Shown piece after piece: positions 12,143 to 45,304 of a stretch of 64,000 nt of DNA (positions are counted from its first letter, which is position 1; the number at the start of each line of letters is the position of its first letter). Below the pieces are notes generated by a model, which was not told where the DNA came from, searched no databases, and was given only the letters and a program-made list of their open reading frames with translations. The translations under genes were made by a program, and so were the position numbers. The stretch is taken from contig JABENI010000007.1 of assembly GCA_013332095.1 (NCBI GenBank), positions 1 through 64,000 of the forward strand, given 5' to 3'. The stretch is from Candidatus Bathyoplasma sp. NZ (GTDB lineage Bacteria; Bacillota_I; Bacilli_A; MAG-NZ).

Positions 12143-12212
12143 GTTTGTTAATAACCTAAAATACTATTTTTAAAAATGCGGTTATAAAAAATTATTAAGA
12201 AGGAGTGACTAT

Positions 12213-14009
12213 ATGAAAAAAATGTTTGTATTATTTGTAATGGGACTTGCTATATTTAGTTTAGTCGGATGTAATGATAAAGAACTAAAGACACCTAATG
12301 ACGGTGAACTAACGACACCTAATGACGGTTATATTGAATATACTGATATTACAAAAATTCCGAGTTTAAATTCTTTAATTGCAACAGATGGAAATTCATT
12401 TCAAGGGCTTGGGAATACTCAAGAAACATTATTTAGATTGGATGGTGATGAAATTCCACGAGAAGGTATGGCTAATACTAATATAACTGAAACAACTGTA
12501 GCAGGAGTTACTACTCATAGAGTGACTTTACGTGATGATAATTATTGGGTAACTCATGAAGGTAATATTTATGAAGTTGATGGAGTACAGCAAAAAGTAA
12601 AGGCAGATGATTTTGTGTTTGCATGGAAAACTCTAGGAGCTAGTGAGGTAGACTATAGTTTTATGATTTCTAGTATATTAGGTATTTTAGATACTACTAG
12701 TGATACGATTACTAATGTTGAAGGTGAGTTAGTGGATAAGCAATTTGATGCAGATATCAAAAAGATAAGCGAATTTGTATTTGAATTTAAAACAAGTTAT
12801 GATCTGGCTTATAAAGAAAAATTACTAGGATTCCAAGCATTTGCACCAATTCATGAAGGATTTTATAATGATAAAGGAATAGACTACGCTACAACAAAAG
12901 AAGCATATTTAAATAGTGGACCTTTTTATTTAAAAGAATTAGCAAATATGACATCTGAAACTACTATATATGAAAAAAACCCACACTATTGGGATAGAGA
13001 TGCAGTTAAAATTCAAGGAATAAAAAATAAATTCCATCAAGATGCAATACCATCTACATTAGTATTAGAATTTGAAAAAGGAAATACAGATTTAGTAAAT
13101 TTAACTGCAGACTATATTGACCAGTACGAATCAGTTGCTACTGTATTTAAAAGTGCTAGAACGTCATATTTAATGTTAAATCAAAGAAAAGATGCATGTT
13201 TGGATAAATATCCTATTAGCGGTACTCCAAGCAATCATGTCAATGGATGTGTGGCACTTCAAGACATAGAGTTTAGAGAAGCAATAGCAAAAAGCTACGA
13301 CAAAAATTACATTGTAAACGATGTTTTAAAAGATGGTTCAATTGCAGCAAATCACTTTCTTCCAGAAGGATTTGTTAAGACAATAGATGGAACTGATTTT
13401 GTTGAAAAAATGGAATCATTTGGTCATACGGGAATTGACACCGATTTAACGAGGGCAAAAGAAGCTTTTGATGCAGCTCATGCTAGAGTTTGTACTGAAC
13501 AAAGTATTGCAGTTTCAAATTGTGTTATAGATATTGAAATAATGGTTAAATCAGAACCATATTTTGTAGATTTTATAGAAGCAATCAAAACTGATATTAA
13601 TACTCAATTTGACAGTAAAATAAACGCAACTGTAAGAACAGGTCCATGGAAAGACGTGCTTCAGGATAGAGACAGTGGATATTTTCAACTTGCAAGAGGT
13701 GGATGGGGTCCAGATTATCCAGATCAAGTGACTTTCTTAGAATTGTTAGAAAATGATGGGACGTTTAATGATGTTGGGTTTGACAATGTAGAATATACTG
13801 ATGTTATTGAAAAATCAAGAGGATTATATGCAACAGATCAAGAAAGAGAAGACGCTCTATTAAGAATTGAAAAATTAGCATTAGACGATTATGCATATGC
13901 TCCTATTTTCCAAAGAGCAACAACAACTTTATATAGTGCTAAGTTTAACAAAATTTATAGAAAAAATATTGGTTCTGATTATGAATTTAAATGGGCAGAG
14001 TTAGGATAA
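12213..14009 (+). CDS. oppA: oligopeptide ABC transporter substrate-binding lipoprotein (OppA-type)
   Basis: SBP_bac_5-family lipoprotein that captures peptides outside the membrane for OppBCDF. Signal MKKMFVLFVMGLAIFSLVGC (Cys20), then a short tandem linker (LKTPNDGELTTPNDG). The fold is in normal order: SLNSLIATDGNSF..QETLFRLDGDEIPREGMA at the N-terminus, NYWVTHEG and DDFVFAWKTL, then FREAIAKSYDKNYIVNDVL in the middle and QLARGGWGPDYPDQVTFLELLE towards the end. Length is 598 aa. Extra cysteine pairs occur around residues 329/347 and 428/440 and could form disulfides. A weak terminator separates it from oppB, which would raise its level relative to the permease. Confidence 0.92.
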   Translation: MKKMFVLFVMGLAIFSLVGCNDKELKTPNDGELTTPNDGYIEYTDITKIPSLNSLIATDGNSFQGLGNTQETLFRLDGDEIPREGMANTNITETTVAGVTTHRVTLRDDNYWVTHEGNIYEVDGVQQKVKADDFVFAWKTLGASEVDYSFMISSILGILDTTSDTITNVEGELVDKQFDADIKKISEFVFEFKTSYDLAYKEKLLGFQAFAPIHEGFYNDKGIDYATTKEAYLNSGPFYLKELANMTSETTIYEKNPHYWDRDAVKIQGIKNKFHQDAIPSTLVLEFEKGNTDLVNLTADYIDQYESVATVFKSARTSYLMLNQRKDACLDKYPISGTPSNHVNGCVALQDIEFREAIAKSYDKNYIVNDVLKDGSIAANHFLPEGFVKTIDGTDFVEKMESFGHTGIDTDLTRAKEAFDAAHARVCTEQSIAVSNCVIDIEIMVKSEPYFVDFIEAIKTDINTQFDSKINATVRTGPWKDVLQDRDSGYFQLARGGWGPDYPDQVTFLELLENDGTFNDVGFDNVEYTDVIEKSRGLYATDQEREDALLRIEKLALDDYAYAPIFQRATTTLYSAKFNKIYRKNIGSDYEFKWAELG

Positions 14010-38080: not shown

Positions 38081-38998
38081 ATGAAAACAAAAAGTAAAGT
38101 AGCGATTTTAATAGTTATTGTTTTAGGTGTCGTAGTAACAATTTTGGGATTATCTTTGAGTAACAATAAGGAACAATTCCAAATGGCAGAACATTATGAG
38201 CAATTAACAGATTATGAGAATGTTTTTGATAAAATTAAATTATCAGAAGTGGAAGAGATGATAAATACGACAGAAGAGGGCGAATATTTTATCGTTTATT
38301 TTGGTATTCCCACTTGTTCCTATTGTCAAAGGGATGTACCCGTTATTAACAGAGTAGCGAAAGAACAAGGTATTGAAACGATATATTACGTAAAATTTGA
38401 TTTTAATTCAGAGTTATCACAAACGTGGCGGGAAACTAAAAAATATAATTATAAAGGGACACCATTAGTAGCAGTTTTTGATGAAAATGGATATGTTAAA
38501 AGTAATTCTGATATAGATTGGACAGGGAAAAGTAGGTTAAATGGATATACAGAACTTTTTAGTGATGTAAAACAAAGGATAAATGATTATGAACAAAAAC
38601 AAATGGTAAAAGATTACGAGGAACTAACAGATAATGAGCATGTTTTTGATAAAATTAAATTATCAGAAGTGGAAGAGATAATAAGTACGACAGAAGAAGG
38701 CGAATATTTTATCGTTTATTTTGGTATTCCTAGTTGTTTCTATTGTCAAGAGGCAGTACCCGTTATTAACAGAGTAGCGAAAGAACAAGGTATTGAAACG
38801 ATATACTATGTAAAATTTGATTATGATTCAGAATTAGCACAAACGTGGAAGGATACTAAAAAATATAATTACACAGGGACACCATCAGTAGCAATTTTTG
38901 ATAAAAATGGATATGTTAAAAATAATTCTGCTATAGATGATAGGGAAAATAAAAGTAATTTACAACTATATACAGAACTTTTTAGTGAGTATAAATAG
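38081..38998 (+). CDS. membrane-anchored protein with two tandem thioredoxin-like domains
   Basis: 305 aa. An N-terminal membrane segment (residues 7-27, VAILIVIVLGVVVTILGLS) is followed by two nearly identical domains (about 38-165 and 178-305). Each has the thioredoxin-like core YFIVYFGIPTCSYCQ / PSCFYCQ with a CxxC active site (Cys79/Cys82 and Cys219/Cys222), VINRVAKEQGIETIYYVKFD and a cis-Pro region GTPLVA / GTPSVA. The domains are also nearly identical in DNA, a recent duplication. The outside location suggests a thiol-disulfide role for extracellular proteins such as the cysteine-bearing opp subunits; that link is inference. Confidence 0.8.
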   Translation: MKTKSKVAILIVIVLGVVVTILGLSLSNNKEQFQMAEHYEQLTDYENVFDKIKLSEVEEMINTTEEGEYFIVYFGIPTCSYCQRDVPVINRVAKEQGIETIYYVKFDFNSELSQTWRETKKYNYKGTPLVAVFDENGYVKSNSDIDWTGKSRLNGYTELFSDVKQRINDYEQKQMVKDYEELTDNEHVFDKIKLSEVEEIISTTEEGEYFIVYFGIPSCFYCQEAVPVINRVAKEQGIETIYYVKFDYDSELAQTWKDTKKYNYTGTPSVAIFDKNGYVKNNSAIDDRENKSNLQLYTELFSEYK

Positions 38999-39202: not shown

Positions 39203-40117
39203 ATGTTATTTTATATTAAAAAAATTATTTCTGCAATTATAGCACTATTTGTAATATTCACACTAGTTTTTTTTATGATGAGAGCAATTCCAGGAGGACC
39301 ATTTACTAGAGAAAAGCCATTGCCTGCGGCTACTAGAGAAAGACTTGAAGATGCTTACGGCTTAAACGATCCGCTAGGAGTACAATATTTTAGATATATG
39401 GGAAATTTAATGAAGTTTGATCTAGGACCATCATTTATTCAACCCTCATATACTGTTAACGAATTAATCAAGATAGGACTGCCACAAACTGCTAAAGTAG
39501 GGATAATATCAGTCATTTTTATCTGTATCTCTGGTATTTTATTAGGAATTGTATCGGCCTTGAAAGCAAATACAACATCCGATTATTTAGTAACAATTTT
39601 AGCAACTTTAGGAGTAACAATTCCAAGTTTTGTGATTGGGGCCTTGTATATTTTAATGGCTGAAAAGGTTCCGTGGATACCTGTCGGTGGATTAGACCTA
39701 CCGATATCGTTTGTCGGACCGGTACTAGCATTATCTGGTTATTCACTAGCTTTTGTTGCGAGATTAACAAGATCGAGCGTGATAGAAGTACTGAATCAAG
39801 ATTATGTTAGAACAGCAAGAGCAAATGGTTTAAAAGAGTCGAAAGTAATATTTAAATACGTTTTAAAAAATAGTTTAATACCAGTTATTACCTATATTGG
39901 ACCGATGATTGCTGCTTTATTAACAGGCTCATTTGTTATTGAAAAAATATTTGATATTAATGGTATCGGTCAATATTTTACTAATGCCGTATTAAATCGT
40001 GATTACACATTAACTATTGGGATAACAATATTTTACTCAGCCTTCTATATTTTGATGGTTCTGATAGTAGATATCGTTTATTCGTTAATAGATCCAAGAA
40101 TAAGATTAAATAAGTAG
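39203..40117 (+). CDS. oppB: oligopeptide ABC transporter permease OppB (second system)
   Basis: 304 aa permease with six membrane helices: FVIFTLVFFMMRAIPGGPF near the start, coupling motif around VIEVLNQDYVRTARANGLKESKVIFKYVLKNSLIP, and end LIDPRIRLNK. It resembles mainstream Bacillota OppB more than the copy at 14090. Ribosome site AGGAGG. First gene of an oppBCDFA operon. Confidence 0.95.
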   Translation: MLFYIKKIISAIIALFVIFTLVFFMMRAIPGGPFTREKPLPAATRERLEDAYGLNDPLGVQYFRYMGNLMKFDLGPSFIQPSYTVNELIKIGLPQTAKVGIISVIFICISGILLGIVSALKANTTSDYLVTILATLGVTIPSFVIGALYILMAEKVPWIPVGGLDLPISFVGPVLALSGYSLAFVARLTRSSVIEVLNQDYVRTARANGLKESKVIFKYVLKNSLIPVITYIGPMIAALLTGSFVIEKIFDINGIGQYFTNAVLNRDYTLTIGITIFYSAFYILMVLIVDIVYSLIDPRIRLNK

Positions 40118-40128
40118 GGGGTGGAGAA

Positions 40129-41319
40129 ATGTCAAAAGAAAAATTTACATTCGTTGAAAAAAACGACAAATTAGATAAAGAACAAACTAGGCCTAGCCTT
40201 ACGTATTGGCAAGATGTTTGGAGACGCTTGAAAAAAAATAAATTAGCAATAATAGGATTAATAGGAGTAATTTTAGTAATGATTTTTGCGCTACTCGGAC
40301 CTATCGTTAGCAAACACAATTATAGTGATCAAGATTTAAGGTTCACAAACACCCCTCCGAGATTGGATATATATAAACTTGATGATGACTTATATGTTTA
40401 TTTGAGTAAAAACTATCAGTTGCTTCAAGTATCGGAAAGAGGAGAATTACTTGATAAATATAAATTAGATGCTTCATGTAGAGATAAAGAAAATAAAATT
40501 TATCAATATGGTTGTAACACTGAAGGCATTACACCGGTTACTTTAGATTATTCTGAGAAAAACAAAGAAAGTGGATATGATTATAAATTTATCTATAATG
40601 GTACTGAAGTTACTGAAAAATATAAAAATGTTTCTAACAAAACTTATTTATTTGGATCAGATGACTTAGGTCGTGATTTACTAACACGAACGATGTACGG
40701 TGCACGAATTTCGTTAACTATAGCATTGATAGCCGCAGTAATTAACTTGTTTATCGGAGTTGTTTACGGTAGTATTTCAGGATATTTTGGTGGTATTGTC
40801 GATACGATAATGATGAGAATTGTCGATATAATTAATGCCATTCCGCTAGTTTTATACGTAATATTGTTATTAGTAATTTTAGATGATCGAGGGCTTAAAA
40901 CGATTATCATTACGTTTGTGACCGTCTACTGGGTAGTGATGGCGCGTTTAGTGCGTGGACAAACTTTAGCAATCAAAGAAAATGAGTACGTTTTAGCCGC
41001 AAGGACAATGGGCGTTAAAGATTTTAAAATTATTGCAAGACACATCATACCGAACGCTTTAGGACCAATTGTTGTTTCCCTAACGATGATGATTCCAAGT
41101 GCGGTATTTACAGAGGCATTCTTAAGTTACATCGGATTAGGAATATCAGTGCCACAAGCTTCGTTAGGAACATTAGCATCAGATGGAGCAGCCGCATTAA
41201 GAAGTCATCCTTATCAGTTAATGTTTCCAGCACTTACGATAGCGTGGATGATGTTATCGTTCAATTTCTTAGGTGATGGATTAAGAGATGCGTTAGATCC
41301 GAGGCTGAGAAAGGGGTAA
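40129..41319 (+). CDS. oppC: oligopeptide ABC transporter permease OppC (second system)
   Basis: 396 aa. An OppC_N helix at about residues 35-58 (LAIIGLIGVILVMIFALLGP), then an extracytoplasmic segment of about 115 residues with two cysteines (DASCRDKE, QYGCNTEG), then the transport domain (YVLAARTMGVKDFKIIARHIIPN; end DALDPRLRKG). The long loop is at the same place as in the first OppC but unrelated in sequence, so it is a shared structural feature of these transporters. Starts 11 bases after oppB. Confidence 0.93.
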   Translation: MSKEKFTFVEKNDKLDKEQTRPSLTYWQDVWRRLKKNKLAIIGLIGVILVMIFALLGPIVSKHNYSDQDLRFTNTPPRLDIYKLDDDLYVYLSKNYQLLQVSERGELLDKYKLDASCRDKENKIYQYGCNTEGITPVTLDYSEKNKESGYDYKFIYNGTEVTEKYKNVSNKTYLFGSDDLGRDLLTRTMYGARISLTIALIAAVINLFIGVVYGSISGYFGGIVDTIMMRIVDIINAIPLVLYVILLLVILDDRGLKTIIITFVTVYWVVMARLVRGQTLAIKENEYVLAARTMGVKDFKIIARHIIPNALGPIVVSLTMMIPSAVFTEAFLSYIGLGISVPQASLGTLASDGAAALRSHPYQLMFPALTIAWMMLSFNFLGDGLRDALDPRLRKG

Positions 41320-41323
41320 AAAA

Positions 41324-42364
41324 ATGAAAAACAAAATATTAGAATTAAAAAACGTAAAAACTTCTTTTTTTACTCACTTAGGTGAAGTTCAATCAGTGAG
41401 AGGTATCAGTTTTGATTTGGAAGAGGGAGAAATTTTAGGAATTGTAGGAGAATCTGGGTCAGGAAAATCAGTTACATCCCTTTCAATAATGGGATTGATA
41501 GATGCTCCCGGTAAAATAAAAGAAGGACAAATTATTTTTAAAGGAACGGATTTAGTTCAGTTGACTGAAAAAAAAATAAGTGAATTTAGGGGAAAAGAAA
41601 TATCGATGATTTTCCAAGATCCGATGACGGCTTTAAACCCTGTATTTACAATAGAAACTCAAATGGTAGATGTTATTAGAGCACATATTAAAAGTTCTGC
41701 TGATCCGACAAAAATGATCAGCAAAGAAGACGCAAAAGCGAGAGCCCTTGGATATTTAACTTTGGTTGGAATTCCCGAACCAGAAATTCGAATCAAGCAA
41801 TTTCCGCATCAATTTTCAGGGGGAATGAGACAGCGGGCTTTAATCGCAATGGCTCTATCGTGCGAACCAAAGTTGTTGATTGCCGATGAACCAACTACTG
41901 CACTCGATGTTACAATTCAAGCTCAAATTATTCAATTGCTTAAAGATATTCAAAAAAAATTAAGGACAAGTATTATTTTTATTACTCATGATTTAGGAGT
42001 AATTGCAGAACTATGTGAGAGTGTTATTGTTATGTACGGTGGTATGATAATGGAAAAAGGAACAGTAGAAGAAATTTTCTACGAGGCAATACATCCATAT
42101 ACTCAAGGATTACTTAAGTCCATTCCAAAAGATGTTGCTGGGCAAAAAGAGCGACTAACTTCAATTGATGGTTCTCCACCAGATTTATTAAATCCACCAA
42201 AAGGATGTCCATTTTCCCCAAGATGTGATTATACGATGAAAATCTGTTTAGAAGAAGCAGCACCATTAATGTATACATCAGACAGTCATTGTTCTGCATG
42301 TTGGTTGTTAGATAAAGATGCTCCAAAAGTTGAAGAAATTAGACGAGTAGGAGGTGCTGAATAA
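41324..42364 (+). CDS. oppD: oligopeptide ABC transporter ATPase OppD (second system)
   Basis: 346 aa ABC ATPase: Walker A GESGSGKS, Q-loop MIFQDPMTALNP, signature FSGGMRQRALI, Walker B LLIADEPTTALD, H-loop ITHDLG. The C-terminal peptide-transporter region keeps the cysteine cluster (GCPFSPRCDYTMKICLEE ... SACWLLD) that the first OppD has lost. It shares a base with the oppF start. Confidence 0.95.
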   Translation: MKNKILELKNVKTSFFTHLGEVQSVRGISFDLEEGEILGIVGESGSGKSVTSLSIMGLIDAPGKIKEGQIIFKGTDLVQLTEKKISEFRGKEISMIFQDPMTALNPVFTIETQMVDVIRAHIKSSADPTKMISKEDAKARALGYLTLVGIPEPEIRIKQFPHQFSGGMRQRALIAMALSCEPKLLIADEPTTALDVTIQAQIIQLLKDIQKKLRTSIIFITHDLGVIAELCESVIVMYGGMIMEKGTVEEIFYEAIHPYTQGLLKSIPKDVAGQKERLTSIDGSPPDLLNPPKGCPFSPRCDYTMKICLEEAAPLMYTSDSHCSACWLLDKDAPKVEEIRRVGGAE

Positions 42365-43356
42365 TGAAAAAAGAACCTTTATTAGTAGTTGAAAATTTGA
42401 AAAAACACTTTGTTACTAAAAGAACACTTTTAGGTAAACCAATAGAAACTGTTCATGCAGTAGATGGAATCAGTTTTGAAATTTACAAAGGAGAAACTTT
42501 TGGTTTAGTAGGTGAATCTGGTTGTGGTAAATCGACAACTGGTAGAACGATAATAAGATTGTATTCTCCCACAGATGGAAAAATAATTTATGATGGAGTA
42601 GAAATTGGTGGTATGAAGGAAAAAGAATTGAAAAAATACCGTCAAAAAATTCAAATGATTTTTCAAGACCCATATGCTTCGCTAAATTCAAGAATGACTA
42701 TTACTGATATTATCGGTGAAGGTATCGACACGTATAAGATATATACTGGGAAAGAAAGACAGGAAAGAATATATTATTTATTAGAAAGAGTAGGGTTAAA
42801 AAGAGAACATGCTAGTAGATATCCCCACGAATTTAGTGGAGGACAAAGACAAAGAATTGGTATCGCTAGAGCGATAGCGATTAATCCTAGTTTAATCATA
42901 TGTGATGAGCCAATTTCTGCCCTTGATGTTTCTATTCAAGCACAAGTTGTTAATATGCTTGATGATTTACAGAAAGAATTAGGTTTAACTTATTTATTTA
43001 TTGCCCATGATTTATCAATGGTTAAATATATAAGTGATAGAATAGGTGTTATGTATTTAGGGAAAATGGTTGAAATTGCGGAGAGTGACCCGTTGTATAA
43101 TAAACCATTACACCCTTATACTAAAGCTTTACTATCATCAATCCCATTACCAGATCCAAAAGCAAATAAAAAAGCTGAAAGAATTATTTTAGAAGGTGAT
43201 GTTCCATCGCCAATAAATATTTCAATTGGCTGTAGATTTGCGTCAAGATGTACTTATTGTGAAGATATTTGTACGGTTACCGACCCCGAGGTTATCGAAG
43301 TACTACCAAAAAGGTTTGTAGCATGTCACTTGGTAAAAAAAATAAATAATTTATAA
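42364..43356 (+). CDS. oppF: oligopeptide ABC transporter ATPase OppF (second system)
   Basis: 330 aa ABC ATPase of normal length: Walker A GESGCGKST, Q-loop MIFQDPYASLNS, signature FSGGQRQRIGI, Walker B LIICDEPISALD, H-loop IAHDLS. The C-terminal cysteines (GCRFASRCTYCEDIC ... ACHLV) are kept. It has no insertion between Walker A and the Q-loop, unlike OppF at 17255. Confidence 0.95.
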   Translation: MKKEPLLVVENLKKHFVTKRTLLGKPIETVHAVDGISFEIYKGETFGLVGESGCGKSTTGRTIIRLYSPTDGKIIYDGVEIGGMKEKELKKYRQKIQMIFQDPYASLNSRMTITDIIGEGIDTYKIYTGKERQERIYYLLERVGLKREHASRYPHEFSGGQRQRIGIARAIAINPSLIICDEPISALDVSIQAQVVNMLDDLQKELGLTYLFIAHDLSMVKYISDRIGVMYLGKMVEIAESDPLYNKPLHPYTKALLSSIPLPDPKANKKAERIILEGDVPSPINISIGCRFASRCTYCEDICTVTDPEVIEVLPKRFVACHLVKKINNL

Positions 43357-43413
43357 GGTTATGCTTGTCTATGAAATATAGGCGTTCATATAAAAGAAAT
43401 TGGAGGAAAAAAG

Positions 43414-45255
43414 ATGAAAAAATTATTAAGTTTAATAGCAGTTTTAGTTTTAGCAGTGTCGTTAGTAGGTTGTAAATCATACGAATATGATCCAATATGG
43501 GAAAATGCTTCTTTAAGGGAGGCCTTAACGAAGTCAATTGATCGTGAGGCAATTGTTGAAGCATTAGGTGCTGGAGAGATTCCGGCAACTGGTATGGTAC
43601 CACCAGGATTTTTAGATAATAACGATAATGATTTTAAAGTAATTTCTGGTGATTATGGAATCGCTACTGATGATTCACAGTATGCTGAAGCAAAAAAATT
43701 ATTTGCTCAGGCAGCTACGGAATTAGGTTTAACTGAAAAACAATTAATAAAAAAATTAAACAAAAAAACTTATTTGTTCAATAATACTGATACACATAAG
43801 ACAGTAGCAGAATTAATTCAAAACATGTGGCAACAAAATTTAGGATTTACTATCAAAACAGAATATTCTGAATGGGCTACATTCCAAGATGTTCGTACTT
43901 CAGGTCAGTTTGACTTAGCACGTGGTGGATGGATAACAGATTTCATGGATCCGTCTGGATTATTAGGAATATTTGTTCCTAATAATAGTTACAATGATTC
44001 AGGATATGATAATCCTGCTTACACAGCTGCTATTGAGGAAGCAGGATCAGCAACAGATCCTGAAGTTCACTTTGCAAAATTATATGAAGCACATGCTATA
44101 CTAATGGCTGATGAGCCAATCATCCCACTTTTTCACTACACTAGTCAAGTATTGATAAAAGAAAAAGTAAAAGATTGGTCACGCTCAGTATTAGGAGCGA
44201 TAGATTTTTCGACTGCTGGGATTGAAGAATCTAGTGGTGAAACATCTAAAGTTATAAATTTTAATATTGGAGCTGACCCTAAAACACTAGACCCTGGATT
44301 GAATGGAGCTAGTGATGGTGGACATGTTATTAACAATACTTTTGAAGGTTTAGTGAGAGAAAAAGAAGGTGTGATATCTCCAGGTATGGCAGAAAGTTGG
44401 GATGTTTCTGAAGATGGACTAACTGTAACTTTTAATATTCGTGATGATGCAAAATGGTCTGATGGAACAGCGTTAACAGCAGATGACTTTGTATACTCGT
44501 GGTTAAGAGCTATGGATCCAAGAACAGCGTCAGAATACTCATGGATTTGGGAATATACTTACATTGAAGGAGCAAATGAATTTTTTAAATATGGACAAGA
44601 AGAGGATGAAAATTTTGATATCTTCGATGTAGCAAATTTAGAAACGTTAGAAACTTTAAAAGCAGCAGTAGGAATAGCATCAAAAGAAGATGGAAAAATT
44701 TTAGAAATTAACCTAACACAACCAAATAATTGGCTAATTTCTTTACTGTCTTTCTATCATTTCATGCCAGTTCCGGAAAGTATTGTATCTGATACAGATA
44801 AAGTAGGTGAAGAGGGATTCTGGGCAAAAAATGCTGCAGATGGATATGCAATTTCTAATGGGCCATACAAATTAACTGAATATACAGTTGGTGGTGGATT
44901 AAAATTAGAAAAAAATGAGCATTACTGGAATGCGGAAAATGTTGGTATAGATGTAATTAACGGTAGTTTTACTGATGAGACTAGTACAGCATACTCACAA
45001 TATAAAGCAGATGGATTAGATGTTATGGTTACTATTCCTCCAACAGAAATTCCAAATTTAATAGCAACTTCTGAGGAAATACATATATTTCCACTATTAG
45101 GAACGTATTATATTAACTTTGGTCTAAACAATCCTGATCGATCTGTGGTATATACTGGTGGAGCATCTACTGATGAAGAATCTACAGACGATGAATCTAC
45201 TGATGACGAATCTACAGACGATGAATCTACTGATGACGAATCTACAGATGAATAA
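43414..45255 (+). CDS. oppA: circularly permuted OppA-type peptide-binding lipoprotein
   Basis: 613 aa. Lipoprotein signal MKKLLSLIAVLVLAVSLVGC (Cys20). Residues 21-269 are the C-terminal half of an SBP_bac_5 protein (IWENASLREALTKSIDREAI, LARGGWITDFMDPSG, HAILMADEPIIPLFHY). After a linker (IEESSGETSK, 270-279) residues 280-578 are the N-terminal half (VINFNIGADPKTLDPG, LVREKEGVISPGMAESWDVS, ALTADDFVYSWLRAMDP, ISNGPYKLTEYTVGG), ending YYINFGLNNP, which would normally join to IWENASLREAL. Together they make one complete OppA of about 548 residues. Residues 584-613 are an acidic STDDE repeat tail. Ribosome site GGAGG. Last in the operon. Confidence 0.9.
   Translation: MKKLLSLIAVLVLAVSLVGCKSYEYDPIWENASLREALTKSIDREAIVEALGAGEIPATGMVPPGFLDNNDNDFKVISGDYGIATDDSQYAEAKKLFAQAATELGLTEKQLIKKLNKKTYLFNNTDTHKTVAELIQNMWQQNLGFTIKTEYSEWATFQDVRTSGQFDLARGGWITDFMDPSGLLGIFVPNNSYNDSGYDNPAYTAAIEEAGSATDPEVHFAKLYEAHAILMADEPIIPLFHYTSQVLIKEKVKDWSRSVLGAIDFSTAGIEESSGETSKVINFNIGADPKTLDPGLNGASDGGHVINNTFEGLVREKEGVISPGMAESWDVSEDGLTVTFNIRDDAKWSDGTALTADDFVYSWLRAMDPRTASEYSWIWEYTYIEGANEFFKYGQEEDENFDIFDVANLETLETLKAAVGIASKEDGKILEINLTQPNNWLISLLSFYHFMPVPESIVSDTDKVGEEGFWAKNAADGYAISNGPYKLTEYTVGGGLKLEKNEHYWNAENVGIDVINGSFTDETSTAYSQYKADGLDVMVTIPPTEIPNLIATSEEIHIFPLLGTYYINFGLNNPDRSVVYTGGASTDEESTDDESTDDESTDDESTDDESTDE
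45168..45252 (+). repeat. tandem repeat encoding the (STDDE)n tail
   Basis: Alternating 15-base units (GATGAATCTACAGAC and GATGAATCTACTGAC types), about five to six in a row, encode the Ser-Thr-Asp-Asp-Glu tail of the permuted OppA. Tandem repeats of this kind easily change length by slippage. Confidence 0.85.
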
Positions 45256-45266
45256 TAATTAAATGA

Positions 45267-45304
45267 ATAAGAGTTATTGATGAAAATCAATTTCTCTTTT
45301 TTTT
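45267..45304 (+). terminator. terminator of the second opp operon
   Basis: AAGAG..ATTGAT-gaaa-ATCAAT..CTCTT with small internal mismatches, followed by a run of T. It starts 12 bases after the oppA stop. Confidence 0.7.

Follow-up and report, generated by a model that had tools for sequence, protein, structure and literature searches.

Does a gene whose product carries the two halves of an oligopeptide-binding protein in reversed order still encode a working receptor, and is such a gene a lone oddity? Both questions are raised by the last gene of the opp operon in the window, by which we mean the whole 64,000-nucleotide stretch analysed. A sequence-only reading had described its product as a circularly permuted OppA, and the open reading frame, its coordinates, the signal sequence, the swapped halves and the internal join were all as that reading had them when examined by sequence inspection, phmmer and Pfam (Table 1). 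We put at roughly 0.87 the probability that the gene's product is a working OppA-type lipoprotein in circularly permuted form, serving an oligopeptide ABC importer, with its membrane anchor moved to the crossover between the lobes.

Table 1. Features of the opp operon and of its permuted oppA gene (positions in the window)
Feature	Position	Strand	Remarks and basis
oppB permease	39203..40117	+	Order and similarity to relatives
oppC permease	40129..41319	+	Order and similarity to relatives
oppD ATPase	41324..42364	+	Order and similarity to relatives
oppF ATPase	42364..43356	+	Order and similarity to relatives
Ribosome-binding site GGAGG	43402..43406	+	7 bases 5' of the ATG (sequence)
Permuted oppA	43414..45255	+	613 codons plus stop, single frame
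Lipoprotein signal peptide, lipobox LVGC (Cys20)	43414..43473	+	By eye
Canonical C-terminal half, placed first (residues 27-269)	43492..44220	+	PF00496 210-365; 8are 293-509
New join IEESSGETSK (residues 270-279)	44221..44250	+	Compared with orthologue ends
Canonical N-terminal half, placed second (residues 280-574)	44251..45135	+	PF00496 2-211; 8are 11-286
New acidic C-terminal tail, ESTDD repeats, 39 residues	45136..45252	+	Repeat scan; pLDDT
30-bp coding tandem repeat, 2.8 copies, 98% matches	45165..45248	+	Makes up most of the acidic tail
Terminator-like hairpin, AT-rich, leading into a U-run	~45269..45298	+	Folding energy

The permutation itself is plain from the profile matches. PF00496 (SBP_bac_5) matched the protein with a total of 246.1 bits (cut-off 32.4) in two pieces, residues 26-192 corresponding to profile positions 210-365 and residues 321-574 to positions 2-211 of the 368, and the halves scanned apart gave E-values of 1.5e-27 (C half) and 9.5e-46 (N half) over these complementary ranges. 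The whole profile is thus present in the reverse of the canonical N-then-C order. As had been proposed, the total adds up to one complete protein: both segments are homologous and complementary, and within the profile nothing is lost or doubled (phmmer, Pfam), which is what defines a circular permutation. Since the two pieces abut at profile position 210/211, there is a single cut point, and it lies at the inter-lobe crossover. A phmmer search of the PDB agreed: in B. subtilis OppA (8are), positions 11-286 are matched by the window protein's residues 268-570 and positions 293-509 by its residues 30-255. The closest PDB sequence matches are OppA-type, and a Pfam scan at E ≤ 0.01 returned nothing besides PF00496.

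The protein begins MKKLLSLIAVLVLAVSLVGC, by eye a signal sequence with a Gram-positive-type lipobox. The two broken ends had been said to be contiguous in normal OppA, which is nearly so in B. subtilis OppA and in the relative L058, whereas the closest normal orthologues have a loop about 15 residues longer at exactly the cut site (sequence comparison), suggesting that the site tolerates change. The internal join had been read as a lipoprotein-type linker; its rear does resemble a native-type post-cysteine stretch, but its front looks like the native C-terminal end of relatives (...DFSTAKINEE, ...DFSSAYIEK), so that residues 270-279 look like a native C-terminus fused to the linker that follows the cysteine ahead of a normal N half. 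At the other end is the acidic tail, on which the sequence-only reading was silent; its residues 579-613 have a pLDDT below 50 in the AlphaFold2 model. The hairpin 3' of the gene has a folding energy of -10.7 to -11.8 kcal/mol (z about -3.1) and is absent from the list of a simple terminator scan. The segment around it (45261-45300) has some 20 further copies in the genome at 76-96% identity and constitutes a terminator-like repeat family. Promoter-like sites were not more numerous than in shuffled sequences.

Whether such a chain closes into one OppA fold was approached by structure prediction. AlphaFold2 was given an alignment (A3) in which all homologue rows are half-proteins (14 of 22 N fragments and 14 of 22 C fragments; L043, L044, L046, L049-L052 and one of two fragments from L041 were left out), and returned a model with pLDDT 84.8 and pTM 0.82. 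The normal-order orthologue L033, modelled with 13 full homologues, gave pLDDT 84.9 and pTM 0.82, and the helices and strands of the two models are almost identical apart from their swapped order. In this structure check, which the sequence-only reading had suggested, the permuted protein matches the confidence of a normal-order one. Foldseek and VIA-align matched one half of the model at a time, the N half to OppA with Z 29-30 among the top rows and the C half to 3o6p with Z 25.9 and rmsd 1.7. As the aligners gave no whole-protein permuted superposition, closure into one OppA fold rests on the pTM.

The gene closes an intact oppB-C-D-F-A operon in which it is the sole binding-protein gene, and the ribosome-binding site, operon position and terminator are intact, as had been stated. 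In nine related operons (L032-L034, L058, L059, L061-L064), a normal-order oppA occupies the same slot after oppF; of these, L059 and L061 share a genome, a contig end truncates L032 and L034, and the fetched stretch of L061 begins inside oppB. This shared slot implies that the permuted gene replaces a normal one or derives from it in situ. The C half is 52-57% identical to those of L032, L033, L059, L062, L063 and L064, 51% to L034, 48% to L058 and 37% to L061, and the N half is 57-63% identical to those of the seven closest same-slot orthologues. At E 1e-5, three SBP_bac_5 genes were counted in its own genome (G000), where the permuted oppA has no close counterpart in normal order. One of the other two is a normal-order gene (12174-14006) with an operon of its own; the second (L066:4996-6657, contig C44), the last gene of another B-C-D-F-A operon, encodes a further permuted SBP_bac_5 lipoprotein, cut inside the C half. 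The same contig stretch carries a 1423-aa open frame (L066:1-4269) that runs off the fetched sequence and has many repeated domains, adhesin-like by eye. Just upstream of the opp operon, the window holds a thioredoxin-like gene (38081-38998) matched by Pfam Thioredoxin_2 in two stretches; it consists of two in-frame tandem copies with 98 identical residues over about 130 alignment columns, and we read it from its sequence as a recent tandem duplication-fusion.

The source record is a 44-contig draft and relatives do possess tandem oppA genes, so two normal genes misjoined by assembly might have produced the appearance of a permuted one. We consider this very improbable, as a single frame runs through three joins that all coincide with structural boundaries, no repeated sequence bridges the internal joins, and the same cut recurs in four other genomes. 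The search for repeats used 1.9 kb of DNA against the genome itself; its stronger matches were to the ribosome-binding site and signal start (54 bp at 80%, 26 bp exact) and to the terminator hairpin, and the remaining ones were weak and scattered. GC content is also alike in both halves (0.350 and 0.340).

Relatives were searched for the same order by BLAST of both halves against fetched ORFs and by profile searches, in genome samples that overlap. Together with the window gene, 12 permuted family-5 binding proteins were found, with three cut positions. Cut I, the crossover used by the window protein, is shared by L022 (G009), L054 (G052), L055 (G031) and L056 (identical to L012; G057). A profile of these five recovered 5 full-length matches at E 1e-40 among 395 genomes of the class and, at E 1e-84 among 392 genomes of the phylum, four full-length matches, all among the same five. 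All five share W173, D176 and D179 in their alignment, and D176 is what we take to be the counterpart of Asp419, which binds the peptide amino group in Salmonella OppA. Cut II lies inside the C half and is represented by L057 (G002) and by L066 of the window's own genome, with 2 full-length matches at E 1e-30 among 395 genomes; the C-terminal match of L057 to the C-half profile is weak by itself (10.4 bits). Cut III follows the GWxxDYxDP segment and occurs in L067 (G080), L121 (G212) and L126 (G145), 3 of 247 genomes, as well as in L011/L065 (G033) and L133 (G367). Pfam matches cut-III proteins in one piece and in normal order because the moved end lies beyond its model; the evidence comes instead from the C-half profile, of which positions 164-234 match at the front and 4-164 at the end, and for L067 from BLAST, in which its front part hits the C-terminal ends of normal relatives with E-values as low as 6e-17. 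When the front parts of L011 and L133 were made into a profile, it matched at full length, at E 1e-55, in G033 alone among 336 genomes, a sample to which G367 evidently does not belong; seven other matches begin at position 118.

All 12 proteins have, by eye, a signal-like N-terminus with a cysteine of lipoprotein type. Nine of the genes, the window gene included, adjoin homologues of B, C, D and F (the F of L055 is cut by the locus end), while L067 is accompanied by B, C and D before its locus ends, L121 by B, and L126 by none seen in 4.9 kb. The cut-I lineage of L022, L054 and L055 is spread over three genera within a single family. Between L054 and L055, identity is 72%, dN 0.199 and dS 1.355, the latter near saturation, which suggests constraint; for L055 and L022, dN/dS is higher (0.42/1.14), and for L011 and L133 it was not computable. 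Among the matches listed in a PF00496 survey of 120 genomes, those in G038 and in G058 each have six TGA codons in frame, which fits relatives that use TGA for tryptophan.

For a maximum likelihood tree, the halves of 54 of 88 two-lobed ORFs were rearranged into canonical order. The other 34 were omitted as near-duplicates, by thinning or as distant rows, among them the permuted L066, the genome's own normal-order L002, and L006 and L085, two of the window protein's ten normal sisters. Eight permuted proteins fall at five places: the window protein; L012, sister to normal L023; L022/L054/L055, sister to normal L083; L011/L133, sister to normal L010; and L057. The starred branches force five changes of order, and the 5th and 95th percentiles over 200 bootstrap trees are both five; changes of chain order on the tree could in principle include reversions. 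Shared origins were examined by AU tests of six joins, the groups being named after the tree had been seen. Rejected were a single clade of the cut-I five (p 3e-5), the window protein with L012 (p 3e-112) or with L011/L133 (p 4e-10), L012 with the L022 group (p 2e-100) or with L057 (p 6e-4), and the L022 group with L057 (p 0.005). L067, L121 and L126 escaped the C-half profile and so stand outside this tree; a tree of their own places them together in one clade next to seven normal relatives, and they are probably a sixth origin. L066 stood beside normal L029 in a quick tree (support 0.994) and may be a seventh, on a branch too long to place. The permutation in the window is apparently one of several independent ones in the class.

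The tree also bears on whether the gene could be a rearranged copy, decaying or neutral, whose frame is still open by chance. In three other permuted lineages, the branch exceeds that of the normal sister in length (0.67 versus 0.23 for L012, 0.88-0.99 versus 0.56 for L022/L054/L055 and 0.42-0.56 versus 0.29 for L011/L133), so that permutation is accompanied by faster change there, though not in the window gene; the new acidic repeat tail, and two other SBP operons in the genome that could make the gene redundant, likewise lend decay some credit. Since no same-genus copy was found, selection on the window gene was judged by branch length alone. Its end branch of 0.39 equals those of the eight normal sister tips in the tree (0.26-0.54 from the same node, mean 0.40). 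PRK15104, the best OppA profile, gives it 237.3 bits in two stretches and normal L033 236.8 in one, and PRK09755, the second best, gives 165.0 and 177.3, respectively. Neither protein approaches the 947-bit NCBIfam equivalog cut-off of PRK15104, which thus does not tell permuted from normal here, L033 itself scoring just 236.8. With a normal branch length, near-equal profile scores, an AlphaFold2 confidence equal to that of L033 and an intact operon, decay is improbable. A probably functional permuted OppA is the reading best supported by operon, divergence rate and fold confidence; the sequence-only reading had it that the gene may be functional.

By analogy with its family, the permuted OppA would be exported and then lipidated at Cys20, its lobes would close on a peptide as in ordinary OppA, and it would dock on OppBC for ATP-driven peptide import via OppDF. 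The membrane anchor would sit at the inter-lobe crossover and not at the N-terminus of the canonical first lobe, one of the two covalent crossovers would be open, and the old termini would be tied by the 10-residue linker. Docking might be impeded if the anchor at the crossover is short. The relocated anchor and the acidic tail might also be taken to mean that the protein works in another capacity, for example as a receptor or surface protein, and not in peptide import; there is little chance of this, given that it is the sole binding protein of a complete importer operon and diverges at the rate of its normal orthologues.

As for the route by which a functional permuted OppA may have arisen, a tandem SP-N-C-N-C ancestor that was subsequently trimmed had been proposed. 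Duplication and fission/fusion are both standard models of permutation according to the available extract of PMC3320104. Complete tandem oppA pairs, as separate ORFs, exist in four relatives and provide raw material for permutation by duplication, which makes the proposal plausible. Its fused intermediate was not seen in the loci read. Candidate N-C-N-C fusions in G029, G338 and G007 (frames of 1172-1227 aa) proved to be separate ORFs. Fission and renewed fusion of half-genes would require no such intermediate and is equally a standard model, but no single-lobe half-genes were noticed in the loci read, the tandem pairs do exist, and the thioredoxin-like gene just upstream of the operon is itself an in-frame tandem duplication; we regard fission and fusion as an unlikely route, though one of some weight. 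Tandem duplication, in-frame fusion and trimming would most likely have produced the permuted gene.

Normal OppA proteins of family 5, or cluster C (PF00496; 8are; L059, L062-L064, L032-L034), share with the window protein both homologous lobes, the operon slot and the lipoprotein nature. The window protein differs in having the C half before the N half, the anchor at the crossover, the old termini joined and an acidic tail. The other 11 permuted proteins are likewise SBP_bac_5 members in which a chain end has come to lie at the front, after one lipobox-like signal, but stand at different places in the tree or are cut inside the C half. The claim that no permuted OppA had been described agrees with the outcome of searches in open-licence full-text literature, preprints excluded, which turned up neither a permuted OppA nor any permuted protein of cluster C; the case is nevertheless not unique, given the 12 proteins found here and an earlier precedent outside the family. 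This precedent is TpMglB-2 (Tp0684) of Treponema pallidum, likewise a natural circularly permuted ABC binding lipoprotein, which binds ligand; according to the available extract of its description (PMC4990184), a "Cluster Bc" has been proposed for it, with relatives in treponemes and Gram-positives, and its authors suggest a link between permuted topology and membrane tethering. It has the cluster B sugar-binding fold and not that of SBP_bac_5, its N-lobe strands are moved to the C-terminus, with a fourth crossover, and one permuted topology is described in that extract (PMC4990184), compared with repeated permutation at different cuts here. The window protein, matching PF00496 alone and OppA-type PDB entries, falls outside Cluster Bc.

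The window protein is therefore an OppA by homology and context that differs in chain order and is part of a recurrent set, not a lone oddity. In the literature searched, natural permutation of a two-lobed transport receptor has been described for one cluster B group (PMC4990184, available extract), and here it recurs within a large binding-protein family, at three cut positions and with at least five order changes on the tree. Profile annotation would name such genes ordinary binding proteins and so mask the permutation. The recurrence bears on the tethering proposal of the TpMglB-2 authors, as far as the extract of PMC4990184 sets it out. That family-5 proteins of this class are permuted repeatedly because tethering selects the position of the anchor is a tentative and rather doubtful idea; if true, permutation would be a way to shift a lipid anchor to the crossover or to another loop while leaving the lobes unchanged, and a "Cluster Cc" with several anchor positions would parallel Cluster Bc. 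Orthologues that occupy one operon slot in permuted or normal form provide natural matched pairs, with which one could ask whether chain order, a second covalent crossover or anchor position matters for capturing peptides and for docking.
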